Shown piece after piece: positions 7,987-18,127 of a stretch of DNA of 64,000 nucleotides. The position numbers were made by a program, and so were the translations under genes. The stretch comes from Spirochaetales bacterium (GTDB lineage: Bacteria > Spirochaetota > Leptospiria > Leptospirales > Leptonemataceae). The notes beneath the pieces were generated by a model. It was not told the origin of the DNA. It saw nothing but the letters and a program-made list of their open reading frames with translations, and made no database searches. The stretch's first letter is position 1; each line of letters starts with the position of its first letter. The DNA lies in NCBI GenBank assembly GCA_015075425.1, contig JABTUL010000001.1, positions 1,984,001-2,048,000 on the forward strand, read 5' to 3'.

Positions 7987-8548
7987 TGGCTGCCGGCCAG
8001 CGCCGGCCGGCAGAATCCTGCAGCTCAAGCGGAATAACTCTGGTTCCGGAAGCGCTCAGAACAAAACGAAGTACTTCTTTATGATAGTCCGCTGTATTGT
8101 TCGTGGTCACACAGCTACCCAGGCTCCCCTCAAAGGGGAGCCCCGCACGCATGCACAGGGAATTGCCGGAACTCACGTCAGAGAGTGCGATCTCGGTCGC
8201 CGTCGCCTCAACACCGGATACACTGGTTGCCCGAATCCTGACGCCCTGGACAGTCCTTTGGCCACTATTGCGCAGCACCGGTGCCAGACGAATCGTTTCG
8301 CCACTGGCCGGCAGGCCATCGCCATTGCCCACGGTCTGGTAGCCAGACGCAGCATTGGTCTGATCGTAGATTGTGCTGGAGTGTAAAGTAAGCTCGATGA
8401 GTTCACCAAACAGTGCGTTGCGAACCAGGTAGTAAAATATCCCCTGGCCTTCTTTTGACTCAGGATCCAGGGGGCTGTGTAACGAGGACCTGGCATCCAT
8501 GCAAGAGAAAAACAGAATCAATAGCACAGGAGTAACTCTAAAATGCAT
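7967..8548 (-). CDS. Predicted lipoprotein of unknown function
   Basis: A 193-residue protein. From ATG 8548 it begins with a short signal peptide, MHFRVTPVLLILFFSC, whose Cys fits a relaxed spirochaete lipobox, so it is probably exported and lipidated. The rest is beta-rich with a repetitive, immunoglobulin-like feel (IRLAPVLRNSGQRTVQGVRIRA), and I recognise no family. The start overlaps the end of the CsgG-like lipoprotein gene by 11 nt, which implies coupled translation and a shared envelope role. A longer frame reaching 8878 would lie inside the upstream gene and is not credible. Its 3' end overlaps msrA by 20 nt. Confidence 0.7.
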   Translation of the reverse strand: MHFRVTPVLLILFFSCMDARSSLHSPLDPESKEGQGIFYYLVRNALFGELIELTLHSSTIYDQTNAASGYQTVGNGDGLPASGETIRLAPVLRNSGQRTVQGVRIRATSVSGVEATATEIALSDVSSGNSLCMRAGLPFEGSLGSCVTTNNTADYHKEVLRFVLSASGTRVIPLELQDSAGRRWPAAITLNVQ

Positions 8549-9656
8549 ACAAAACCCCTGCACGCAGAAAAGCCCGGCCATTGGTTTCATAATCGGGCAG
8601 GACAAACCACATCGCATTGCCCAGAGCCAGATCTGCACCACTGGATCTGTGGGCAAAAAAAGGAAGATCGGCACTGCGCTTTTGCGCCCATAGGTAAACA
8701 AAAGCGGCAGCCCAGACGGATTGATTGTAAGCTCGCGCCTGGCGGATCGCCTCACCTCGCCGACTTTCCACGAGAGAAGAAAAGTACAGGTAGTGTGCGA
8801 GAAAATCCGGAGAGATCCGGCCGGAAGGCAGGAGGCCTGAATAGTCCCCGCTCTGTCCTTCAAACATGGGCCGGTCACTCAAATAGAGGATCCCGGCCAT
8901 CGTCGCCAGATTGTAATTGTGCCTGGCCTGATCGTAGCGCATTCGCGCGGTGTACGCCGTATTGGCCGCCGCAGAAAAGGATCCCAGAAAAAAAAGGCCG
9001 GTAAGCAGGTGCCCGCTTTTAGCATGCTTGAACCCCGGTAGAACGTAGTTGATACGCGTTTTATGTTCTTCCAGAAAAGCACCTGGAACGGCGAGGACTT
9101 CGCGGGCACCTTCAGGAAGCCTGCCGGATAGTTCTGCATCCCGCACCTTCGCGTAGTTTTCGGAGATGACGACATCCGATTCTGACTTACCTTTGATACG
9201 GGCGATGAGTCGGCGTGTCATACGAAATATTTCCGCTTCCAGGGCCCCTTCATTGGGAGCCCGGGCCACACCACTGGTCACCACTTCCAGAGTCTCAATG
9301 TCGATCGCATTCAGAACAATAAAATAGGTATTGGTTTTTCGCAGCGTTCCGGTAAACATGAGTCGCGCATTCAAATTGCGCCCGACTTCGCCGAGCTCTT
9401 CACTCATCCCGGATTGCTGCAGTGTCAGTTCGCGCAGCGCAAGCTTGCGCCGCACCGTATCTCTTTCTATGACCCGGAACTCCTCCGTGCTGATCATACT
9501 GGCCCGGATCAAATCGGAATAGTGCTCCGCCTGAGCAGCGGTCGCCCCTGAGGGAACCAGGTCCAGAATGACGACTGGCGGCCGCTCCTTCAAGGCCCGG
9601 TTACGCAGCTGGCACTGACAGAACAGGACCAGCAGGCCTAAGGCAAAGAGCCGCAA
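8538..9656 (-). CDS. CsgG-like lipoprotein
   Basis: A 372-residue protein starting at TTG 9656 with a signal sequence ending LLVLFCQC, a plausible lipobox. Residues about 25-150 resemble the CsgG/curli-assembly and TolB-N-like fold: VVILDLVPSG, then an EEFRVIERDTVRRKL segment, then a LNARLMFTGTLRK strand. Such domains are common in spirochaete envelope lipoproteins. The C-terminal half (about 190-370) looks like a membrane-proximal repeat region with LLTGLFFLGSFSAAAN and contains no motif I can name. It follows the PPDK-like gene by 6 nt and overlaps the next lipoprotein, so all three are probably co-transcribed. Confidence 0.65.
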   Translation of the reverse strand: MRLFALGLLVLFCQCQLRNRALKERPPVVILDLVPSGATAAQAEHYSDLIRASMISTEEFRVIERDTVRRKLALRELTLQQSGMSEELGEVGRNLNARLMFTGTLRKTNTYFIVLNAIDIETLEVVTSGVARAPNEGALEAEIFRMTRRLIARIKGKSESDVVISENYAKVRDAELSGRLPEGAREVLAVPGAFLEEHKTRINYVLPGFKHAKSGHLLTGLFFLGSFSAAANTAYTARMRYDQARHNYNLATMAGILYLSDRPMFEGQSGDYSGLLPSGRISPDFLAHYLYFSSLVESRRGEAIRQARAYNQSVWAAAFVYLWAQKRSADLPFFAHRSSGADLALGNAMWFVLPDYETNGRAFLRAGVLYAF

Positions 9657-9662
9657 GCTCTT

Positions 9663-12260
9663 TTAACGGGCCCCGGAGGACCGATTCATGGTGAGCTGAG
9701 CCACAGCGAGAAGAGCGATGGGCACGCTGTAGGGTGAGCAGGATACGTAATTGAGCCCGGAGTCCATACAGAACTCAATGTTGGCCGGATCCGCGCCATG
9801 CTCGCCACAAAGGCCAAGTTTTAAGTCCGGGCGAGAAAGCTTGCCCCGTTGAGAAGAGAGCCGCACCAGTTCCTTCACCGGATCGCCCAGAACCTGAAAG
9901 GGGTTGGAAGCCAGTAAATCAAATTCCGTATACACCGGGAAGAAGGAATTCACGTCATCGCGGGACAGGCCATTGGTCGTTTGCGTCAGGTCATTGGTAC
10001 CGAAACTGAAGAACTCGGCGTAGCGGGCAATCTCCGTGGAAAGTAGCGCCGCAGCCGGAAGTTCAATCATGGTGCCGACTTTGTAGTCTACCGGTTGTCC
10101 GTTTCCTCTCTTGTAATCCCGGCCTATATCGGAGATTCCGATGATATGCTTGCCTTCAATCTTCTTACCATTGCGGATGAAACGCAGTTCATTGGGATTC
10201 ATAATCAAAGGAATCATAATTTCCGGAACCACATCAATGCCCTCAGCACTCAGTCGCACCGCTGCCTCGAAGATGGCCCGCACCTGCATCTCATAGATTT
10301 CCGGGTAAGAAACGGCAACGCGGCAGCCGCGATGTCCCAGCATCGGGTTGAACTCATGGAGTCTGTCGATCTGAGCCTGAATGGCCGCACGATCCCCGCC
10401 CGATCCTTTCTTTTTTAAGTATTCCATATAAGCATCAAGCATTTCCGGAGTGCGCGGCAGGAACTCGTGGAGAGGGGCATCCAGAAGCCGGATGGTCACT
10501 GGATAGGGTGACATGGTCTTAAACAAATCGTAGAAGTCACCGGCCTGCAGCGGGCGCAAATCATCCAGCGCCTTTTTCCTGTCTGCTGCGTCCCGGGCCA
10601 GAATCATTTCGCGGAAACGATTGATCCGATCCTCGGCAAAGAACATATGTTCTGTACGGCAAAGACCAATGCCATAGGCCCCCATCATTTTAGCCACCCG
10701 TGCATCCCGTCCAAGGTCGGCATTGGCGCGGACAACAAATGAGGGCTGGATGAACTTCCTGATGATCTCAATAAATTCAACAAGACCATTGGTCTGGATA
10801 TCCGGATTGATCAGCGAAGCCTTCCCCAGGGCGATCATGGGCGGCCGGTACACGGGCACATCCATCGTTACATAGTCCCCTTCTTTGATCACCGTTCCGG
10901 AAAGCTCAAATTGTCTGTCACCCATCTTGATCTCAGGATTCACAATACTTACTTTTCCTAAAGATCGCGCCACTACCGGCGCATGCGATGAATAACCACC
11001 TTCCACAGAGATCACACCCTGCCCGACTTCAATGGCTTTCACGTCTTCCGCAAAAGAGGCTTCAACCATAAGGATGAGTCGGGTATCTTCACCCTTCTGC
11101 AAGGCATCACGATGCGCTTCCATCAAGGCATCGGCGGAGAAGAATACACGGCCAACAGCTGCGCCGGGTGAACCACCCAGTCCTCCGGTGATGGCCTTGA
11201 TTCCATCCAGCGACTTGGGATCGACTACCGGATGCAGAAGGCTGGCCAGCTGACCGGGCGGTATCTGCTCCACGACCCACTTTTCCTCGACAGCACCGGA
11301 TTTCATAAGATCCAGAAGAGTGCGTAAATGAGCCTGGGTGGATTTTTTATCTACGGAAGTCTGATTGATCAGCCAGAGCTTCTTATTTTCAACAATGAAT
11401 TTTACCTCACGCAGCTCGCGGAACTTGCGCTCAAGAGCAGATCCAATCTCTTTGAGCTGGTTCAAATAGCCCTCTGAGAGCGAATGAATATCCTGGCCAT
11501 CACGATCCAGCGTATAACTCTTATAAAGAAAGCTACCGGACAACCGATTCTCGCCACTGATAATGTCCCGCGTAAAGTACATACCCACACTGCTTTCTTC
11601 GCCAATATTTCCAAAAACCATCCCCTGTACAATAATGGCCGGGTTATCATCCTCTTCCAGGTCCGGATCAAAGTAGCTGCGCGCGGTTTGCTTGATCACA
11701 GCCTCGAGCTGGGCAAAAGGCTCATCGGGAATTTTATCCGCCCCGATCAGGGCTTTCATTTCCCGCGCGCAGGACATGGTCCCCTCTGTTGTTTTTTCGA
11801 ATTTAGCTTCTATAGCATCAAACTGAGCCGGAGCCAGACCAAAGAGCTTGGTGCCGGCCGTACGTAACAAATAGCAATATTCAAACCACGCCTGTTGCTC
11901 ACCAATCATGGCAGCAAACCCGGCAATATTGGCTTCCGACAAACCGACATTGAAAACGGTTGGATAAATCGGCAAACTCAGGTTGGAACTTACAACGACT
12001 TTCAGGAGCAGCGGATTTGTCTGATCTCCATACTTACGGCCGACTCCGGCCTCAATCTGAGGCAGGGCCTGGCGTATCATGCCCATGACATCGGCTGCAT
12101 CCATCTTTCCTGTAAGGCGCGAATCCAGTATAAACCCGGGAACGATGGGCAACCGCATTTCTGCAAGTTCGAAGGCACGCTGTCCTCTTTTACCGCTGCG
12201 AGCCCAGACTTCTGCGTCTGTAGTGCAACCTTCCTGACTGAATGGATAGAATCCCGACAT
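9663..12260 (-). CDS. Pyruvate phosphate dikinase-like protein with degenerate ATP-grasp domain
   Basis: An 865-residue protein with the full PPDK layout. The central phosphohistidine domain keeps its His (GGYSSHAPVVARSLG). The C-terminal PEP/pyruvate barrel is intact: GIGLCRTEHMFF, TIRLLDAPLHEFLP, GTMIELPAA, FGTNDLTQ and the catalytic CGEHG. The N-terminal ATP-grasp half is not: the VRSGA loop reads VVVSSN (Arg lost), and the DxEF...LQTR region with the metal-binding Glu and Gln reads VKFIVEN...LINQTS. This protein should therefore handle phosphoenolpyruvate and a phosphohistidine but may not use ATP/phosphate as PPDK does. A strong GGGAGGAAG ribosome binding site precedes the ATG. Downstream lipoprotein genes follow closely. 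Confidence 0.88.
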   Translation of the reverse strand: MSGFYPFSQEGCTTDAEVWARSGKRGQRAFELAEMRLPIVPGFILDSRLTGKMDAADVMGMIRQALPQIEAGVGRKYGDQTNPLLLKVVVSSNLSLPIYPTVFNVGLSEANIAGFAAMIGEQQAWFEYCYLLRTAGTKLFGLAPAQFDAIEAKFEKTTEGTMSCAREMKALIGADKIPDEPFAQLEAVIKQTARSYFDPDLEEDDNPAIIVQGMVFGNIGEESSVGMYFTRDIISGENRLSGSFLYKSYTLDRDGQDIHSLSEGYLNQLKEIGSALERKFRELREVKFIVENKKLWLINQTSVDKKSTQAHLRTLLDLMKSGAVEEKWVVEQIPPGQLASLLHPVVDPKSLDGIKAITGGLGGSPGAAVGRVFFSADALMEAHRDALQKGEDTRLILMVEASFAEDVKAIEVGQGVISVEGGYSSHAPVVARSLGKVSIVNPEIKMGDRQFELSGTVIKEGDYVTMDVPVYRPPMIALGKASLINPDIQTNGLVEFIEIIRKFIQPSFVVRANADLGRDARVAKMMGAYGIGLCRTEHMFFAEDRINRFREMILARDAADRKKALDDLRPLQAGDFYDLFKTMSPYPVTIRLLDAPLHEFLPRTPEMLDAYMEYLKKKGSGGDRAAIQAQIDRLHEFNPMLGHRGCRVAVSYPEIYEMQVRAIFEAAVRLSAEGIDVVPEIMIPLIMNPNELRFIRNGKKIEGKHIIGISDIGRDYKRGNGQPVDYKVGTMIELPAAALLSTEIARYAEFFSFGTNDLTQTTNGLSRDDVNSFFPVYTEFDLLASNPFQVLGDPVKELVRLSSQRGKLSRPDLKLGLCGEHGADPANIEFCMDSGLNYVSCSPYSVPIALLAVAQLTMNRSSGAR

Positions 12261-12333: not shown

Positions 12334-13389
12334 TTAACGACTTTCATAGAATTTCGCGCAATTGCGGCCGGCGTCTTTGCAGATGTAGAGCGCTTCATCG
12401 GCCAGGCGAATGAAGTCTTCCGCTGTGCTCAAGTGATCCTTATGCCGGGGATAACTGGCAATCCCTATGGAGATAGTGATATTTGCAAACTTGCCATCAA
12501 TGGGTATGGGATGGGACTCTATATTGGTGCGGATCTTCTCCGCAACTTCCAGAGCCCGGTCCGGCCCCGTGTCAGGCATGAGAACGCAAAACTCTTCGCC
12601 GCCGTAGCGCCCGGCCATATCATCGCCACCAAGCTCATACACCGTGTCCTTAATCACATGCGCAAGCTCGATGAGCGCAGCATCGCCGCCAAGGTGACCA
12701 TGCTCAGTGTTCACTTTCTTGAAATGATCGATATCTGACATGATCAGACTGAGTTGCCCGCCGCCCTGGCGTGTTCGCCTGAACTCTTCTTCCAGTCGGG
12801 CCAGAAAGTAATTCTTCAAATAAAGGCCGGTCATGCCGTCCACCGTGGCCAGTTCATGGAGACGGGCATTCTCTATGGCTATGGCTGCTTGATTGGCAAG
12901 AGCACTGAAAATCCGTAGATCCGTGCTGTTGAAGGGCTGCTGATCCTTTTTGTTGAGAACCTGCACCGTACCCAGAACACGCCGACTGATTTTGAGAGGG
13001 ACGCACATCATGGAGCGCGTCACAAAACTGCTCTTGGCGTCACCCTTGCGAGAAAACCTTGGATCCTGCGATGCATCCTCAACCAGAACAGGCTTACCTT
13101 CCTGAGCCACCCAGCCAGAAATTCCCTCGCCGACTTTTAGCCGCAGATCACGCAGCTTCTCACTTTCTTCGCCACCCTTGAGTGTATGAAAGTAAAGCTC
13201 CTGGGTCTCCTCATCCACAAGCATCAAGCTTGAGGCCTCGGCATTCATAACATCGCGGGCCTTTTCCATTAAAGTATCCAGCACCTGGCGCAGGTCCAGC
13301 CGGGCGGAGATAAGGGTCATTACCTCTAAAACTTCATAGAGGTGCCAGTTCTCGTTCTGTAGCTTTTCTATCCGGGCGGTTTCGTTCAC
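12334..13389 (-). CDS. GAF-GGDEF diguanylate cyclase
   Basis: A 351-residue cytoplasmic protein. A short coiled coil (1-25) leads to a GAF sensor domain (about 25-175) and a GGDEF domain (about 185-345) that makes cyclic di-GMP from two GTP. The active-site loop is RYGGEEF (261-267), and the first metal Asp lies in SLIMSDIDHFKKVN. The inhibitory RxxD site seven residues before the arginine of RYGG reads GGDD, so the Arg needed for product inhibition is missing and the enzyme may not be feedback-limited. The start is GTG 13389 without a clear ribosome binding site. The GAF ligand is unknown. The gene lies 18 nt downstream of the 649-residue unknown gene. Confidence 0.93.
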   Translation of the reverse strand: MNETARIEKLQNENWHLYEVLEVMTLISARLDLRQVLDTLMEKARDVMNAEASSLMLVDEETQELYFHTLKGGEESEKLRDLRLKVGEGISGWVAQEGKPVLVEDASQDPRFSRKGDAKSSFVTRSMMCVPLKISRRVLGTVQVLNKKDQQPFNSTDLRIFSALANQAAIAIENARLHELATVDGMTGLYLKNYFLARLEEEFRRTRQGGGQLSLIMSDIDHFKKVNTEHGHLGGDAALIELAHVIKDTVYELGGDDMAGRYGGEEFCVLMPDTGPDRALEVAEKIRTNIESHPIPIDGKFANITISIGIASYPRHKDHLSTAEDFIRLADEALYICKDAGRNCAKFYESR

Positions 13390-13407: not shown

Positions 13408-15357
13408 TTACCGGGCCAGCATCTCACGCAGGCGCAGGACAAAGCGACGATACACAGAACGGACTTTAACCAGAAATTCATTCAGGGCCGGTGGCAGAGA
13501 TTTGTGAATGTAATCCGGCTCATCTACAATGAGCTGTATCCCCAGTTGTTCCAGGAGTCCATAAAATCTTTTGCGTTCGGCAGCCAGTCGCATTCGTTCC
13601 TGAAAGATTTTGGTTACAGCATCCAGAGAAAAAGACAGAGAATGGTCCCCTGATCGCAGAATGTCTTTCTCCAGTCGACGCAAAACGCGAACAAAGGAAC
13701 GTGAGTCCTTCTCCAGCTCTTCAATTCCGGGCGGCAGAGGAAAACGAACCGGCTCAAGCGGTGCGGCTGAGGTGAGCATATAGACGCGCCCTCGCAAAAT
13801 CACCAGCTCCATATACACAGCCGTCTTTGCCAGGTCCAGCCAGTCTCCAAAGCGCCACTTGCGCAAACTGAATTTCTTTTCCAGACGGCGCATCTGTTTG
13901 CGGGAATAGTCGTCGTAAAGGGTCTGATACTCTGGAAGCTCGCGTATGAATTTGAGCGCCATATGAAGCGCATTCTGGGAGCCCACATCCGTTGCTGGCG
14001 GAAGCTTCACCAGCTCACTGAGCAAATGGGCCAGACGGGCCGGATCGTATTCGAAACCGATGGATTGCAGCAAGATCTCATGAAGCAAATCGTGATGAAT
14101 GGAACCTTTCAGAGGGGCAGTAAAATGATCGACCAGATCCGCAGCAACTTCTGAGGAGTGTATGCGATACTCACGCCATTTCACCAGCGGATAAAAGTCT
14201 GCACTCAGCCGGAGCTTACGGAAGGCCTTTTCCCTGATCTTTCCGGGAACGACCAGCAACAGCCTCCCCGCCCGACTTTCCAGATCCGCTTTACTACTGT
14301 AGCGGAATATCTCAAAATCAAAAGGCGCCTTAAAGTACGAAAAAGACTTACTTACTTTCTTTCCGGCTCCCAGGGGAAAAAGCGCCAGGACATCCCGGCC
14401 TCCCTTATGGGGCTTGATGGCAAAGAGCATGTGCGAGCCGGATCGCGAAACAAAACTAACGGTACTGCGAGCAAAAGGCAGCGGCCGCATATCCTCGTAT
14501 TGCTTGAATGCGGCCTTATTATAGATTTTTTTTAGAATAGACAGGCGCTCCTGGTCCGGGCAAAAGATCCCCACTTCCTTGCTTTCAGCATTTTTTCTGC
14601 GCAGAATCTCCGTGAATCCTGGACCGTAAGGTGAGGCACTCGCTACCATGCTCGCCCGGTCCGGATCGATTCCATTCTGGAACAGAACGTAATGCGGATC
14701 GACCGGCGGATTCACGAACAATCCTTCGCGCTCAAAGTGCCAGTACAGACTTATCTGGCCGGCAATTGCTTCATCCGGAAAAAGAAAACCTACACCTTTC
14801 TCGCATTTACGCTCCCGCTTCTGTAGGGCCCTGTTGAACAATTCATACTCGCGATCGATGTGCAGAACTCCTCTTTTGAAAGAGGAGTAGTCCAGCACCC
14901 TTGCCCCACCCACAGTTACATTGACATTTCCGGTGGCAAAAAAAGTGAGCATGCTTTTGTCCCGCTCCGCTCCCCCGGAACCGATCTTGGCCCGGTAAGC
15001 CAGCGATTCAATGGGACCGGGTTCTCCCCTTTCTTCACGAATGCCGGCAAAGGAATTGATCTGGCTGATGCGCTCACGACTGCCCACGTAGCGAATGTGC
15101 TCGGAACCGGCACGAAGGGTTGCATCAATCCAGGCCACCTCAACACCGGCATTTACCGGGTCCTCTTCCGGAAGGACTACATTTTCAATATGCTTGAGGA
15201 GCCCCATGGGAACAGAGTTCGGGGAAGAGCCAAATCGAATAAAGGGACGAAAATCCCGCGGATGCAATCCTGTGTAAACAAGAAGTGTATCGCGATTGAG
15301 CTGAAAGGCCCGCTCCGCCCCGCGAATCTCGGTTGCCGGATCATTTTGCCTTTTCAT
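13408..15357 (-). CDS. Large protein of unknown function
   Basis: A 649-residue protein that I do not recognise. It has no signal peptide or membrane segment, so it is probably cytoplasmic or membrane-peripheral. The N-terminal 350 residues are beta-rich with short basic segments. The last 250 are mostly helical and highly charged, with arginine/lysine-rich amphipathic stretches near the C terminus (FLVKVRSVYRRFVLRLREML). The start overlaps the end of the VWA gene by 17 nt, so the two are translationally coupled, and the diguanylate cyclase follows 18 nt later. The context suggests a component of the same machine as the membrane VWA protein. Confidence 0.6.
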   Translation of the reverse strand: MKRQNDPATEIRGAERAFQLNRDTLLVYTGLHPRDFRPFIRFGSSPNSVPMGLLKHIENVVLPEEDPVNAGVEVAWIDATLRAGSEHIRYVGSRERISQINSFAGIREERGEPGPIESLAYRAKIGSGGAERDKSMLTFFATGNVNVTVGGARVLDYSSFKRGVLHIDREYELFNRALQKRERKCEKGVGFLFPDEAIAGQISLYWHFEREGLFVNPPVDPHYVLFQNGIDPDRASMVASASPYGPGFTEILRRKNAESKEVGIFCPDQERLSILKKIYNKAAFKQYEDMRPLPFARSTVSFVSRSGSHMLFAIKPHKGGRDVLALFPLGAGKKVSKSFSYFKAPFDFEIFRYSSKADLESRAGRLLLVVPGKIREKAFRKLRLSADFYPLVKWREYRIHSSEVAADLVDHFTAPLKGSIHHDLLHEILLQSIGFEYDPARLAHLLSELVKLPPATDVGSQNALHMALKFIRELPEYQTLYDDYSRKQMRRLEKKFSLRKWRFGDWLDLAKTAVYMELVILRGRVYMLTSAAPLEPVRFPLPPGIEELEKDSRSFVRVLRRLEKDILRSGDHSLSFSLDAVTKIFQERMRLAAERKRFYGLLEQLGIQLIVDEPDYIHKSLPPALNEFLVKVRSVYRRFVLRLREMLAR

Positions 15358-16411
15358 AAACGTACTCGAAGATATAATTTCCTATTTTAAATTTATCACC
15401 GGGAGAAATCATCCCTTTCTTTTTTTGCACTTTGTACTCAATCAAACTGGCAGGCTTGCCTCTGGGCTTCAACACAGGCTCGCCCTGCGAACGCCCACCT
15501 TTGAAGGAAAATTCCTGGGGCAATCCCAGCTGCTTGATCCGTAAATTATTGCCCATGCGCTGGCCGATTTTGAATTTTCCGCCCTGCTGACGATCCAGGT
15601 GAAAAGCAAGCTTATTGGGAAAATTCACTCCATCTTCATAGTATTTCAATTCACCCACCGGCTTGTGGCGGTACAACCATTTATGGATCAACCAGAAAAG
15701 GCCTCCCAGAAAAAGCAAAACGACGAGTGCAAGGAGCAGGTAAAGACCGTAAGATTCAAGCAAATCCATGATTCGGCTGCGGCCAATGTCCGCTGACACT
15801 TCCGTGAGTCCGGTTGAAGCGCCCGGATCGGTACTGCCTGGATCACCGGCTACGGTTTTGACGCGCGAAGACATATCCTTAAGGGTGGCTTCCAGAGCAG
15901 GATCCTGCAATCGGGCCAGGTTCACGTAGTAAATATAAGGATTATTGCCGGTCGCTTCTTCATCACGAATCTGGGATATTTCAAACTTCTTGCGCCGCTG
16001 CGCCGGATCATCGCGTCCATCAGTCAGGAGAACGACAACGACCCGCTTGCCTTCTGCCGTTAGACGTGAAGTTTCCGTCTGTAGAGTGCGCAACATCGTT
16101 GCCATATCTGTACTCTGACCGGATGGCTTTAAGCTGCGCACATACTCCACCACAGCCTGACGATCCGCATCTGTTTGAATCGCAAAGGACTTTCCGGGAT
16201 GTACTCTATCATCAAAGGGCAGCACCCGAACCTGGTCGTCCTCCCGGGCACTTTGCACCAGTTCCGGGACGCTCTCCTGCACTTTCTTGAGTGTCTGCCC
16301 CTTAATCATGGAACCTGACGTGTCCACCAGGTAGATATATTCTGTTGCCTGGCTACAGGACAACAGAAGCACAACCAGAATTGCTGGTAGTTTATTTACG
16401 ATCCGCACCAT
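15341..16411 (-). CDS. Membrane-anchored VWA-domain protein with C-terminal FHA-like region
   Basis: About 356 residues from ATG 16411, chosen because GGGGA lies a few nt upstream; an ATG at 16429 is also in frame. A signal sequence ending LLLSC gives a likely lipidated Cys19. The von Willebrand A domain (about 24-195) has an intact metal site: DTSGS (30-34), the GQSTD threonine and LLTDGRDD. One membrane helix follows (about 220-246), then about 110 residues with FKIGQRMGNNLRI and GDKFKIGNYIFEYVYE, which look like a degenerate FHA (phosphothreonine-binding-type) fold. The likely topology is VWA outside and the FHA-like domain in the cytoplasm. It is coupled to the following gene by a 17-nt overlap. 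Confidence 0.8.
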   Translation of the reverse strand: MVRIVNKLPAILVVLLLSCSQATEYIYLVDTSGSMIKGQTLKKVQESVPELVQSAREDDQVRVLPFDDRVHPGKSFAIQTDADRQAVVEYVRSLKPSGQSTDMATMLRTLQTETSRLTAEGKRVVVVLLTDGRDDPAQRRKKFEISQIRDEEATGNNPYIYYVNLARLQDPALEATLKDMSSRVKTVAGDPGSTDPGASTGLTEVSADIGRSRIMDLLESYGLYLLLALVVLLFLGGLFWLIHKWLYRHKPVGELKYYEDGVNFPNKLAFHLDRQQGGKFKIGQRMGNNLRIKQLGLPQEFSFKGGRSQGEPVLKPRGKPASLIEYKVQKKKGMISPGDKFKIGNYIFEYVYEKAK

Positions 16412-16450
16412 ACATTCCCCAATCGCCAAAGAGCCCGGCCCAGCCTTAAG

Positions 16451-17173
16451 CTACTCATACTCATTGTACGTCTTTGTGTTCTTGATATACTCCCTGGGAT
16501 TAAAGCGGATCTGCCCGTCTCTGTCAAGATATTCCAGGAGCAAAATGAAAAACCACATGAGCGTGTCCGGACCGGTTTCTATCACCTTGTAACGCCCGGC
16601 CTCCCAATCTTTGATAATCATACCCTGATCCAGAACACAGATTATGTCGGTTTGGTGGGTGGCCGCCACGGCCTTGTCCTGGGCATAATTATCGAGAACC
16701 TTCTTATGGGAGAGGAGCGGGAGAGCGGACTGATAGGCAAAGAAGAGGCTGAAAATCGGCAGGAAATTGCCGGGCGCGGATTCTGGCTGACTGTCCGCAT
16801 AGAGCGATTTGATGGCGTTGGTCATTCCGGCATGCGTAACAATGTGGTTGGATCGCAGGTCTGTTTCAATAGAAAGGAATGCATGGACCGACTCAGCGAG
16901 TACAAAGTTACCGGACATCTCAATGATGGAAGGACAGAATTTCTTGTAAATCACCATGTCGCAACTCCGACTGAGCATGTGCCTTTTGTTGCGCACCCGG
17001 CCGCTGGCCAGGGAAAACCCTTGTGGAATATGGTCGCGAATGAAATGAAAGAAGTCGCGGTAAATGCGCAGATCCTTCTCTTTGGCCGGCAATTCGAGCC
17101 CGCGCTTCTGGATCTGCTCTTTTAACTTTTCTTGAAGCTCCCGGCCTTTTTCCGCGAAATAATCGGTAAACAT
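16451..17173 (-). CDS. DUF6602-like protein of unknown function
   Basis: A 240-residue protein. The stretch around residues 58-107 (ASGRVRNKRHMLSRSCDMVI, later VLAESVHAFLSIETDL) resembles the DUF6602 family, whose members look like restriction-endonuclease folds with a D...ExK pattern. Here the Asp is present (CDMVIYKK), but the ExK position reads E-T-D, so nuclease activity is doubtful. The assignment is tentative. It has no signal peptide and no clear ribosome binding site, and sits 15 nt after the preceding gene in the four-gene group downstream of cfpA. Confidence 0.5.
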   Translation of the reverse strand: MFTDYFAEKGRELQEKLKEQIQKRGLELPAKEKDLRIYRDFFHFIRDHIPQGFSLASGRVRNKRHMLSRSCDMVIYKKFCPSIIEMSGNFVLAESVHAFLSIETDLRSNHIVTHAGMTNAIKSLYADSQPESAPGNFLPIFSLFFAYQSALPLLSHKKVLDNYAQDKAVAATHQTDIICVLDQGMIIKDWEAGRYKVIETGPDTLMWFFILLLEYLDRDGQIRFNPREYIKNTKTYNEYE

Positions 17174-17188
17174 GCTGCTATTATCGGC

Positions 17189-18127
17189 TTAGAAAAGCGA
17201 TAATACGCGGTTCACATCTTTCTTTAAGAAAGCTTCAAAGCGATTCGACGCGGCCTCAAACAGATACTTCTGTAAACGGCTGATATGCTTGATTTCCGGG
17301 CCTGCTGCCTGAAAAAAGATCAGGCCGCCGTGCTTCACCTTCCCCCACTTAAACAGTGAGTTGAGGTCCTGGATGAGTTCCCCTTCGTGGTAAACGATGA
17401 TCTTGCAGCCATGATGCGTGGTCTCATAGGCCTCAATCACATTCTTCCAGGCCTCCACGTTTCCATTGTGAAAGAGTTCGTTTGTCACCTGGACGCTGTA
17501 TTTGGGGCTGATCATACGCTTTCCGCCGGTGGCAGGCGCGGACCCGGCTGCCGGGGATGCTTTGCTGGCCGCCACCGGAGGCGGAGGGGGAGGTGGCGGC
17601 GGAGGGGCTGCAGCGGTGGCTTTGAATCCCTCCGTACTTCCGGGATCTTTTCCGGCAAGCAGTGCAAAAAAAGCGTCCATGCCCCGGCGAGCAACATCCG
17701 CATTCCCATCACGACTGCGGGCATAAAGAGTGATCAATTCATCACGCTTGAGCTCCATCACCGCTTCCCAGTCAGAAGCTACTGAGGGATTCACCAGCAT
17801 GGTTCCCAGGTTGGGATGCATATAACAGAGGACCAGATCCAGATTGGTCCATTCAGCACAGCGCGACTGAACCGGTCCAAAATTGGTAAAGGATTCACTG
17901 AGATTGATGGAACGGCAGGGAAAGTTGTATTTGTGTACCAAGGCAACGGACAGAATGGGCAGCACCTGGTCGCGATTCAACGTGCCGGCTTCAAGAAGTC
18001 CGTTCAGCAATGTTGCCGCATTTTGACCCTTACCGATTTCCTCGATGATCCCGGTCACGCTTACCAGGTGTCTTAGTGTTTTATTGAAAACCGGTCTTGT
18101 TCCCAGACCTGCCAGATCCATATCCAT
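17189..18127 (-). CDS. Protein of unknown function with polyproline linker
   Basis: A 312-residue cytoplasmic protein in two globular parts joined by a run of ten prolines (about residues 175-184) flanked by Ala/Ser-rich sequence. The N-terminal part is helical. The C-terminal part (about 205-312) has an alternating hydrophobic pattern and ends KKDVNRVLSLF. I do not recognise the family. A polyproline run of this length normally needs EF-P for translation and is often a flexible or SH3-like binding element. It is the first gene after the cfpA terminator, in line with the DUF6602-like, VWA and 649-residue genes. Confidence 0.6.
   Translation of the reverse strand: MDMDLAGLGTRPVFNKTLRHLVSVTGIIEEIGKGQNAATLLNGLLEAGTLNRDQVLPILSVALVHKYNFPCRSINLSESFTNFGPVQSRCAEWTNLDLVLCYMHPNLGTMLVNPSVASDWEAVMELKRDELITLYARSRDGNADVARRGMDAFFALLAGKDPGSTEGFKATAAAPPPPPPPPPPVAASKASPAAGSAPATGGKRMISPKYSVQVTNELFHNGNVEAWKNVIEAYETTHHGCKIIVYHEGELIQDLNSLFKWGKVKHGGLIFFQAAGPEIKHISRLQKYLFEAASNRFEAFLKKDVNRVLSLF

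Follow-up and report, generated by a model that had tools for sequence, protein, structure and literature searches.

An 865-residue open reading frame in the window, i.e., the entire 64,000-nucleotide stretch of Spirochaetales bacterium DNA analyzed here, is a full-length homologue of pyruvate phosphate dikinase (PPDK) in which, judging by the residues present, the phosphoenolpyruvate (PEP) and phosphohistidine sites are intact and the ATP-grasp domain is degenerate. Instead of making ATP, this pseudo-PPDK, as we call it, probably has a signalling or structural role in the cytoskeleton formed by cytoplasmic filament protein A (CfpA). The original prediction, made from the DNA letters alone, was that such a protein may pass phosphate from PEP to something other than ATP or phosphate, or act as a regulator. 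That interpretation is partly supported: the evidence favors it, and its catalytic half is what the conserved residues suggest. It missed, however, that the protein is a phylum-wide paralogue tied to cfpA, that a neighboring gene product has predicted HPr-like domains, and that the annotated 'PPDK' of Treponema pallidum is in the same clade. In domain searches, the NCBIfam PPDK model (TIGR01828) matched residues 16-857 with 665.5 bits, short of its equivalog cut-off of 843; the Pfam PPDK_N match was sub-threshold (18.5 bits; cut-off 27), while the PEP-binding domain PF02896 scored 217.7 bits. The AlphaFold2 model (pLDDT 86.7) had the PPDK fold along its whole length, and solved PPDKs aligned to it with a Z-score of 46 over 817 residues in VIA-align, in agreement with an overall PPDK fold. 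A sequencing error, frameshift or pseudogene was ruled out, as the frame is single, open, and conserved across the phylum. The next open reading frame on the minus strand (8541-9656), which begins 6 bases past the pseudo-PPDK stop codon, has weak similarity to LpoB/FlgO/CsgG.

Table 1. Positions, within the window, of the pseudo-PPDK, its parts, and the genes of the cfpA cluster
Feature	Position	Strand	Remarks
Pseudo-PPDK (clade A; c0), 865 aa	9663..12260	-	ATG start
Degenerate ATP-grasp domain, residues ~1-341	11238..12260	-	K22R, R92V, P-loop deletion, D321E, E323K, R337S
Phosphohistidine swivel domain, residues ~354-468	10857..11201	-	PF00391 and AlphaFold2 model
Catalytic His426 codon (H455 of C. 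symbiosum PPDK)	10983..10985	-	Invariant, 69/69
PEP/pyruvate-binding barrel, residues ~492-865	9666..10787	-	PF02896; all catalytic residues kept
Clade-specific insert GKKIEG, residues 698-703, in PEP barrel	10152..10169	-	69/69; absent from ordinary PPDKs
GAF-GGDEF diguanylate cyclase, directly upstream of pseudo-PPDK	12337..13389	-	Mostly in the window's bacterial family
649-aa protein without Pfam or NCBIfam match, same gene run	13411..15357	-	Relatives beside cfpA in families f9, f27, f42
VWA-domain protein, same gene run	15344..16429	-	Near cfpA in many families
DUF6602 protein, same gene run	16454..17173	-	Near cfpA in other families too
c1, 312 aa (TP0747/TDE0843 orthologue)	17192..18127	-	Two predicted HPr-like domains
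c1 domain 1, residues 69-160, predicted HPr fold	17648..17923	-	No His at active position; VIA-align
c1 domain 2, residues 207-296, predicted HPr-like	17240..17509	-	VIA-align
Invariant c1 motif NELFHNGNVEAWK, domain 2	17444..17482	-	His220 at 17468-17470
cfpA (c2), cytoplasmic filament protein A, 672 aa	18218..20233	-	NCBIfam NF040882, 873.7 bits (cut-off 500)

The reference for residue comparison was the Clostridium symbiosum PPDK sequence, which was rebuilt from the alignment rows of 1dik and its numbering verified on 13 catalytic residues. As predicted, every catalytic residue of the PEP site and the central His is kept, namely H455 (H426 in the window protein), R561 (R535), R617 (R591), D620 (D594), E745 (E733), N768 (N756), and C831 (C818), and all seven are retained in 69 of 69 members of the clade described below. 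The neighbor of the catalytic His, T453, is changed to S424, and is Ser or Ala across the clade. In the ATP-grasp domain, K22, R92, D321, E323 and R337 correspond to R25, V89, E285, K287 and S302, respectively, and the P-loop GMMDT has become IYPT, with one residue deleted. The Val at 92 and the Lys at 323 had been read correctly from the DNA. The Arg at 337 is also lost as claimed, but its replacement is Ser, the reported Thr being due to a one-residue shift; a one-residue slip likewise produced the reported Asn at 335, where the Gln is in fact present (Q300), as it is in 68 of the 69 relatives. Q335 excepted, the 132-sequence alignment described next showed that the ATP-grasp residues have been replaced and not merely shifted.

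Relatives of the protein were sought in 198 genomes of the phylum Spirochaetota, and many families yielded close ones, sharing 45-72% identity; most of the genomes concerned additionally encode an ordinary PPDK at 36-41% identity. In an alignment of 132 sequences, which included 69 spirochaete clade members and 62 ordinary PPDKs, not one clade member keeps any of K22, R92, D321, E323, R337 and the P-loop G101, whereas all 62 ordinary PPDKs keep every one of them. Since the pattern recurs in 69/69 of the Spirochaetota orthologues and in 0/62 of the ordinary enzymes, a chance origin was rejected. The replacements are themselves regular: K22R, S90K (K87 in the window protein), R92V/I and Q320R occur in all 69 sequences, together with E323K/R, and the GK.IEG insert in the PEP barrel is likewise universal in the clade. 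An Arg at 336, one place ahead of the lost R337, is found in 36 of the 69 members, the window copy not among them. The ATP-grasp region contains 34 invariant columns in this clade (clade A) as against 101 in the ordinary PPDKs, while the PEP barrel contains 114 as against 96. Clade A was monophyletic with a support of 1.0 in separate trees built from the C-terminal and the N-terminal halves, and its stem was 2.5 times longer in the ATP-grasp half (1.61) than in the C-terminal half (0.64). In our reading, selection on the ATP-grasp half has been redirected or relaxed, while the PEP half has stayed under strong conservation. From the residue patterns, it appears almost certain that the ATP chemistry has been lost, and likely that the transfer of phosphate from PEP to the histidine has been retained. 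Two pseudo-PPDKs, L075 and L076 of families f7 and f20, have about 100 additional residues within the ATP-grasp domain; this N-terminal enlargement was examined as a possible fused partner and turned out to be an insert.

The regularity of the replacements could also be explained by an altered-specificity dikinase, in which the N-terminal domain binds some other small acceptor or ligand through R22, K90, R320 and K/R323, making the protein a metabolic enzyme or a sensor. The clade invariants K22R, S90K and Q320R, plus E323K/R, would fit such a remodeled nucleotide pocket, as would the retained Q335. Nonetheless, we consider this explanation quite improbable, given that the Mg ligands D321 and E323 are lost, that position 337 varies freely, that the ATP-grasp domain is the least conserved part of the protein, and that the genomic linkage is to cfpA and not to metabolism. 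The pseudo-PPDK is also not a replacement for a lost PPDK, which was ruled out by the gene content of the source genome: a second, normal ppdK, as the original prediction had suggested looking for, is present with all its ATP-site residues, in addition to a separate PpsA-type protein (C2, 803 aa). The genome also encodes two pyruvate kinases.

Neighbor clustering of 24 loci revealed a conserved gene order of cfpA (c2), c1, and pseudo-PPDK; in the window, four same-strand genes stand between c1 and the pseudo-PPDK. All 18 of the c1 and pseudo-PPDK pairs that were examined lie on one strand, and in families other than that of the window most of the gaps measure 12-100 bp. Among the 198 genomes, 81 contain both cfpA and the pseudo-PPDK, 1 the pseudo-PPDK alone, 4 cfpA alone, and 112 neither, i.e., 81 of the 82 pseudo-PPDK carriers possess cfpA (Fisher P of 2e-49, a value that ignores phylogenetic relatedness). 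The distribution of c1, found in 84 genomes, nearly matches that of the other two. Family f22, which includes the Treponema genomes, is mixed, its genera g41 and g63 having both genes and g68 and g76 neither. A wider scan covered one genome per species from 84,980 species, and wherever the contig extended far enough its members adjoined cfpA and c1. The one exception was L127, in which the parts of the cluster are separated by other genes, as in the window. The titles of these members were spirochaetal, apart from L127 and one SAR324-labelled metagenome-assembled genome. On this gene linkage and co-occurrence, we hold that the pseudo-PPDK is very probably part of a CfpA module. The adjacent diguanylate cyclase was considered as a local partner and rejected for any general role, being mostly confined to the window's family; within that family, the GAF-GGDEF gene separates the pseudo-PPDK from the cfpA part, and a c-di-GMP input is possible. 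The T. pallidum counterpart of the VWA gene also adjoins cfpA, but is encoded on the other strand and has a gene for a pallilysin-domain protein as its neighbor.

The gene order of the two treponemes, TP0748-0746 and TDE0842-0844, is also cfpA, c1, pseudo-PPDK. By this order, we take TDE0844 of T. denticola ATCC 35405 to be the cfpA-linked copy, of the same ATP-site-degenerate kind. The T. pallidum Nichols open reading frames encode a TP0746 of 901 aa and a CfpA of 678 aa, with P655, A869, E501 and CfpA C31 at their published positions, and the TP0746 residues at 22, 92, 321, 323, 335 and 337 are R, V, E, R, Q and P, which argue against ATP formation. The literature treats TP0746 as an ATP-forming PPDK (PMC10013896, PMC8525777), most likely forming ATP from PEP, AMP and diphosphate (PMC10013896). 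In this respect, an ordinary PPDK with unusual ATP-site residues, still converting PEP, AMP and PPi to ATP, has the annotation and these statements in its favor. It also has the gene content of T. pallidum: a pyruvate kinase search that matched six other genomes gave no match in this one, so that some enzyme should fill the PEP-to-pyruvate step. The only PPDK homologues found in this genome were TP0746 and an EI-like protein, with no ordinary PPDK. The alteration of K22, R92, D321, E323, R337 and the P-loop together, with one of the Mg ligands reversed in charge, and the retention of all these residues by the normal PPDKs of the same genomes, make this reading most improbable. The K22A and R337A proteins of C. 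symbiosum PPDK (1jde, 2dik), which are catalytic-site mutants, were also counted against it. If TP0746 is indeed not an ATP-forming PPDK, the PEP-to-pyruvate step of T. pallidum is left open, and the stated basis for an ATP-forming conversion of PEP to pyruvate in the syphilis spirochaete would be removed.

The c1 protein matched no family in Pfam or NCBIfam, the HPr family PF00381 included. Its predicted model (pLDDT 83) comprises two β-α-β-β-α-β-α domains, for which the best Foldseek matches were HPr phosphocarriers. In VIA-align, domain 1 of the model aligned with E. coli HPr at a Z-score of 9.6 (rmsd 1.7, 79 of 83 residues). The match of domain 2 was to S. carnosus HPr, with a Z-score of 6.2 (rmsd 2.9, 83 of 88 residues), a value that may reflect just a common arrangement. 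The NELFHNGNVEAWK motif of domain 2 is invariant in all aligned sequences, and its His220 caps the N-terminus of helix 221-237, the first of the domain, approximately where HPr has its His15, as judged from the aligned ranges only. An hhalign profile comparison of c1 with HPr was not significant and an HMM search of the PDB with c1 found no HPr; homology at the sequence level was, therefore, set aside, and the predicted HPr-like fold of c1 is treated as a structural lead only. As for the ordinary phosphotransferase system (PTS), neither the EI N-domain nor HPr was found in the source genome, which is 96% complete, and the PTS HPr is thus an unlikely phosphate acceptor there; HPr is present in four relatives of the organism's family. 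On the strength of its modeled fold, c1 itself may tentatively be put forward as the acceptor, with somewhat less than an even chance of being so.

The coexistence of a nucleotide-free PEP/His module, an HPr-like neighbor, and a filament gene makes a path from PEP to His426, from there to His220 of c1, and on to the filament the most economical proposal. The pseudo-PPDK would retain the half-reaction in which PEP and His426 yield pyruvate and phospho-His426; its ATP-grasp domain, no longer handling Mg-ATP, would probably serve for docking, a function that in PTS Enzyme I falls to the N-terminal domain, which docks HPr; His220 in the second HPr-like domain of c1 would most likely accept the phosphate; and in this way the CfpA filament would be informed of the PEP (energy) status of the cell or controlled in its bridging and anchoring. 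Autophosphorylation by PEP, transfer to c1, and the effect on CfpA are steps that we infer from the conserved residues, the model and the gene neighborhood. We give an even chance to the core of this proposal, i.e., a PPDK paralogue devoid of nucleotide and phosphate chemistry that acts as an Enzyme-I-like, PEP-charged relay for the CfpA filament. The full version, in which the pseudo-PPDK and a double-HPr-like c1 form a PEP relay on the cytoskeleton of spirochaetes, T. pallidum included, that arose from PPDK independently of the PTS, the PEP level sets the state of the filament and, by way of it, chromosome partition and division, and TP0746 forms no ATP, is speculative and rather more apt to fail than to hold.

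The main rival is a non-catalytic scaffold, in which the pseudo-PPDK bridges or anchors the CfpA ribbon and transfers no phosphate, PEP acting allosterically if it binds at all. TDE0844 and CfpA were both major proteins in the envelope material of T. denticola that sediments at 100,000 x g (PMC3931704), and such co-sedimentation, although it does not prove binding to CfpA, counts in favor of the scaffold as well as of the relay; so does the strict co-occurrence with cfpA. Moreover, a title cited in PMC13398306 names bridging and anchoring components of treponemal filaments as unidentified. A further point comes from the SAR324-labelled genome (L137, JACZVE010000018.1), where cfpA, c1 and a dikinase-like protein occur in a different order, apparently outside Spirochaetota, although misbinning is possible. 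This homologue has lost R561, N768 and C831 and has degraded PEP motifs (GLFPVDQMM, IDTTMLTQ, GLSGDH), whereas its His motif is retained, as is an insert of the form GR.IEG, and its c1 keeps its His. Since the cluster is kept with the PEP motifs broken, PEP chemistry may be dispensable for the role in the filament in some cases. Nevertheless, a pure scaffold would have no need for the seven PEP/His catalytic residues that are conserved in 69 of 69 members, or for a PEP barrel whose conservation equals or exceeds that of ordinary PPDKs, and we regard it as unlikely. The analysis makes TP0746/TDE0844 and TP0747/TDE0843 candidates for the components that bridge and anchor the CfpA ribbon. Other published observations that agree with a role in the CfpA module are the co-repression of TDE0842-0844 in T. 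denticola (PMC3914990) and the phenotype of a cfpA mutant, which was without cytoplasmic filaments and showed cell filamentation and condensed chromosomes (PMC3398590). Cytoplasmic tubule bundles are described in Leptonema illini, a relative of the source organism (PMC3746420).

Overall, the PPDK fold, CfpA and the HPr fold are known parts, and in the literature searched we found neither a filament role for c1 or the dikinase-like protein, nor a pseudo-PPDK or PPDK as a filament component, nor a description of an ATP-dead PPDK tied to a filament gene. The analysis corrects an annotation across the phylum, and the relay, if true, would to our knowledge be the first PTS-like phosphorelay on a bacterial cytoskeleton. 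Compared with known systems, the window protein resembles PPDK (EC 2.7.9.1, TIGR01828) in its full-length fold, PEP site, catalytic His and domain order, but differs in having lost the P-loop, the Mg ligands and the residues needed for catalysis in the ATP-grasp domain, in falling below the TIGR01828 cut-off, in its GK.IEG insert, and in its location in a cfpA cluster. With PEP synthase (PpsA) it has the PEP and His domains in common; however, its domain order and scores are of the PPDK type, and the PpsA-type protein of the genome is separate. It resembles PTS Enzyme I in combining a PEP barrel and a swivelling His domain without ATP chemistry, next to a protein with predicted HPr-like domains; unlike Enzyme I, it had no N-terminal HPr-binding domain (PF05524) among its Pfam matches, and unlike HPr, c1 has two HPr-like domains, other motifs, and no HPr sequence signature. 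In gene arrangement, the likeness is to the treponemal CfpA system, the window having a CfpA coding sequence recognized by NF040882 and the cluster order of TP0748-0746 and TDE0842-0844.
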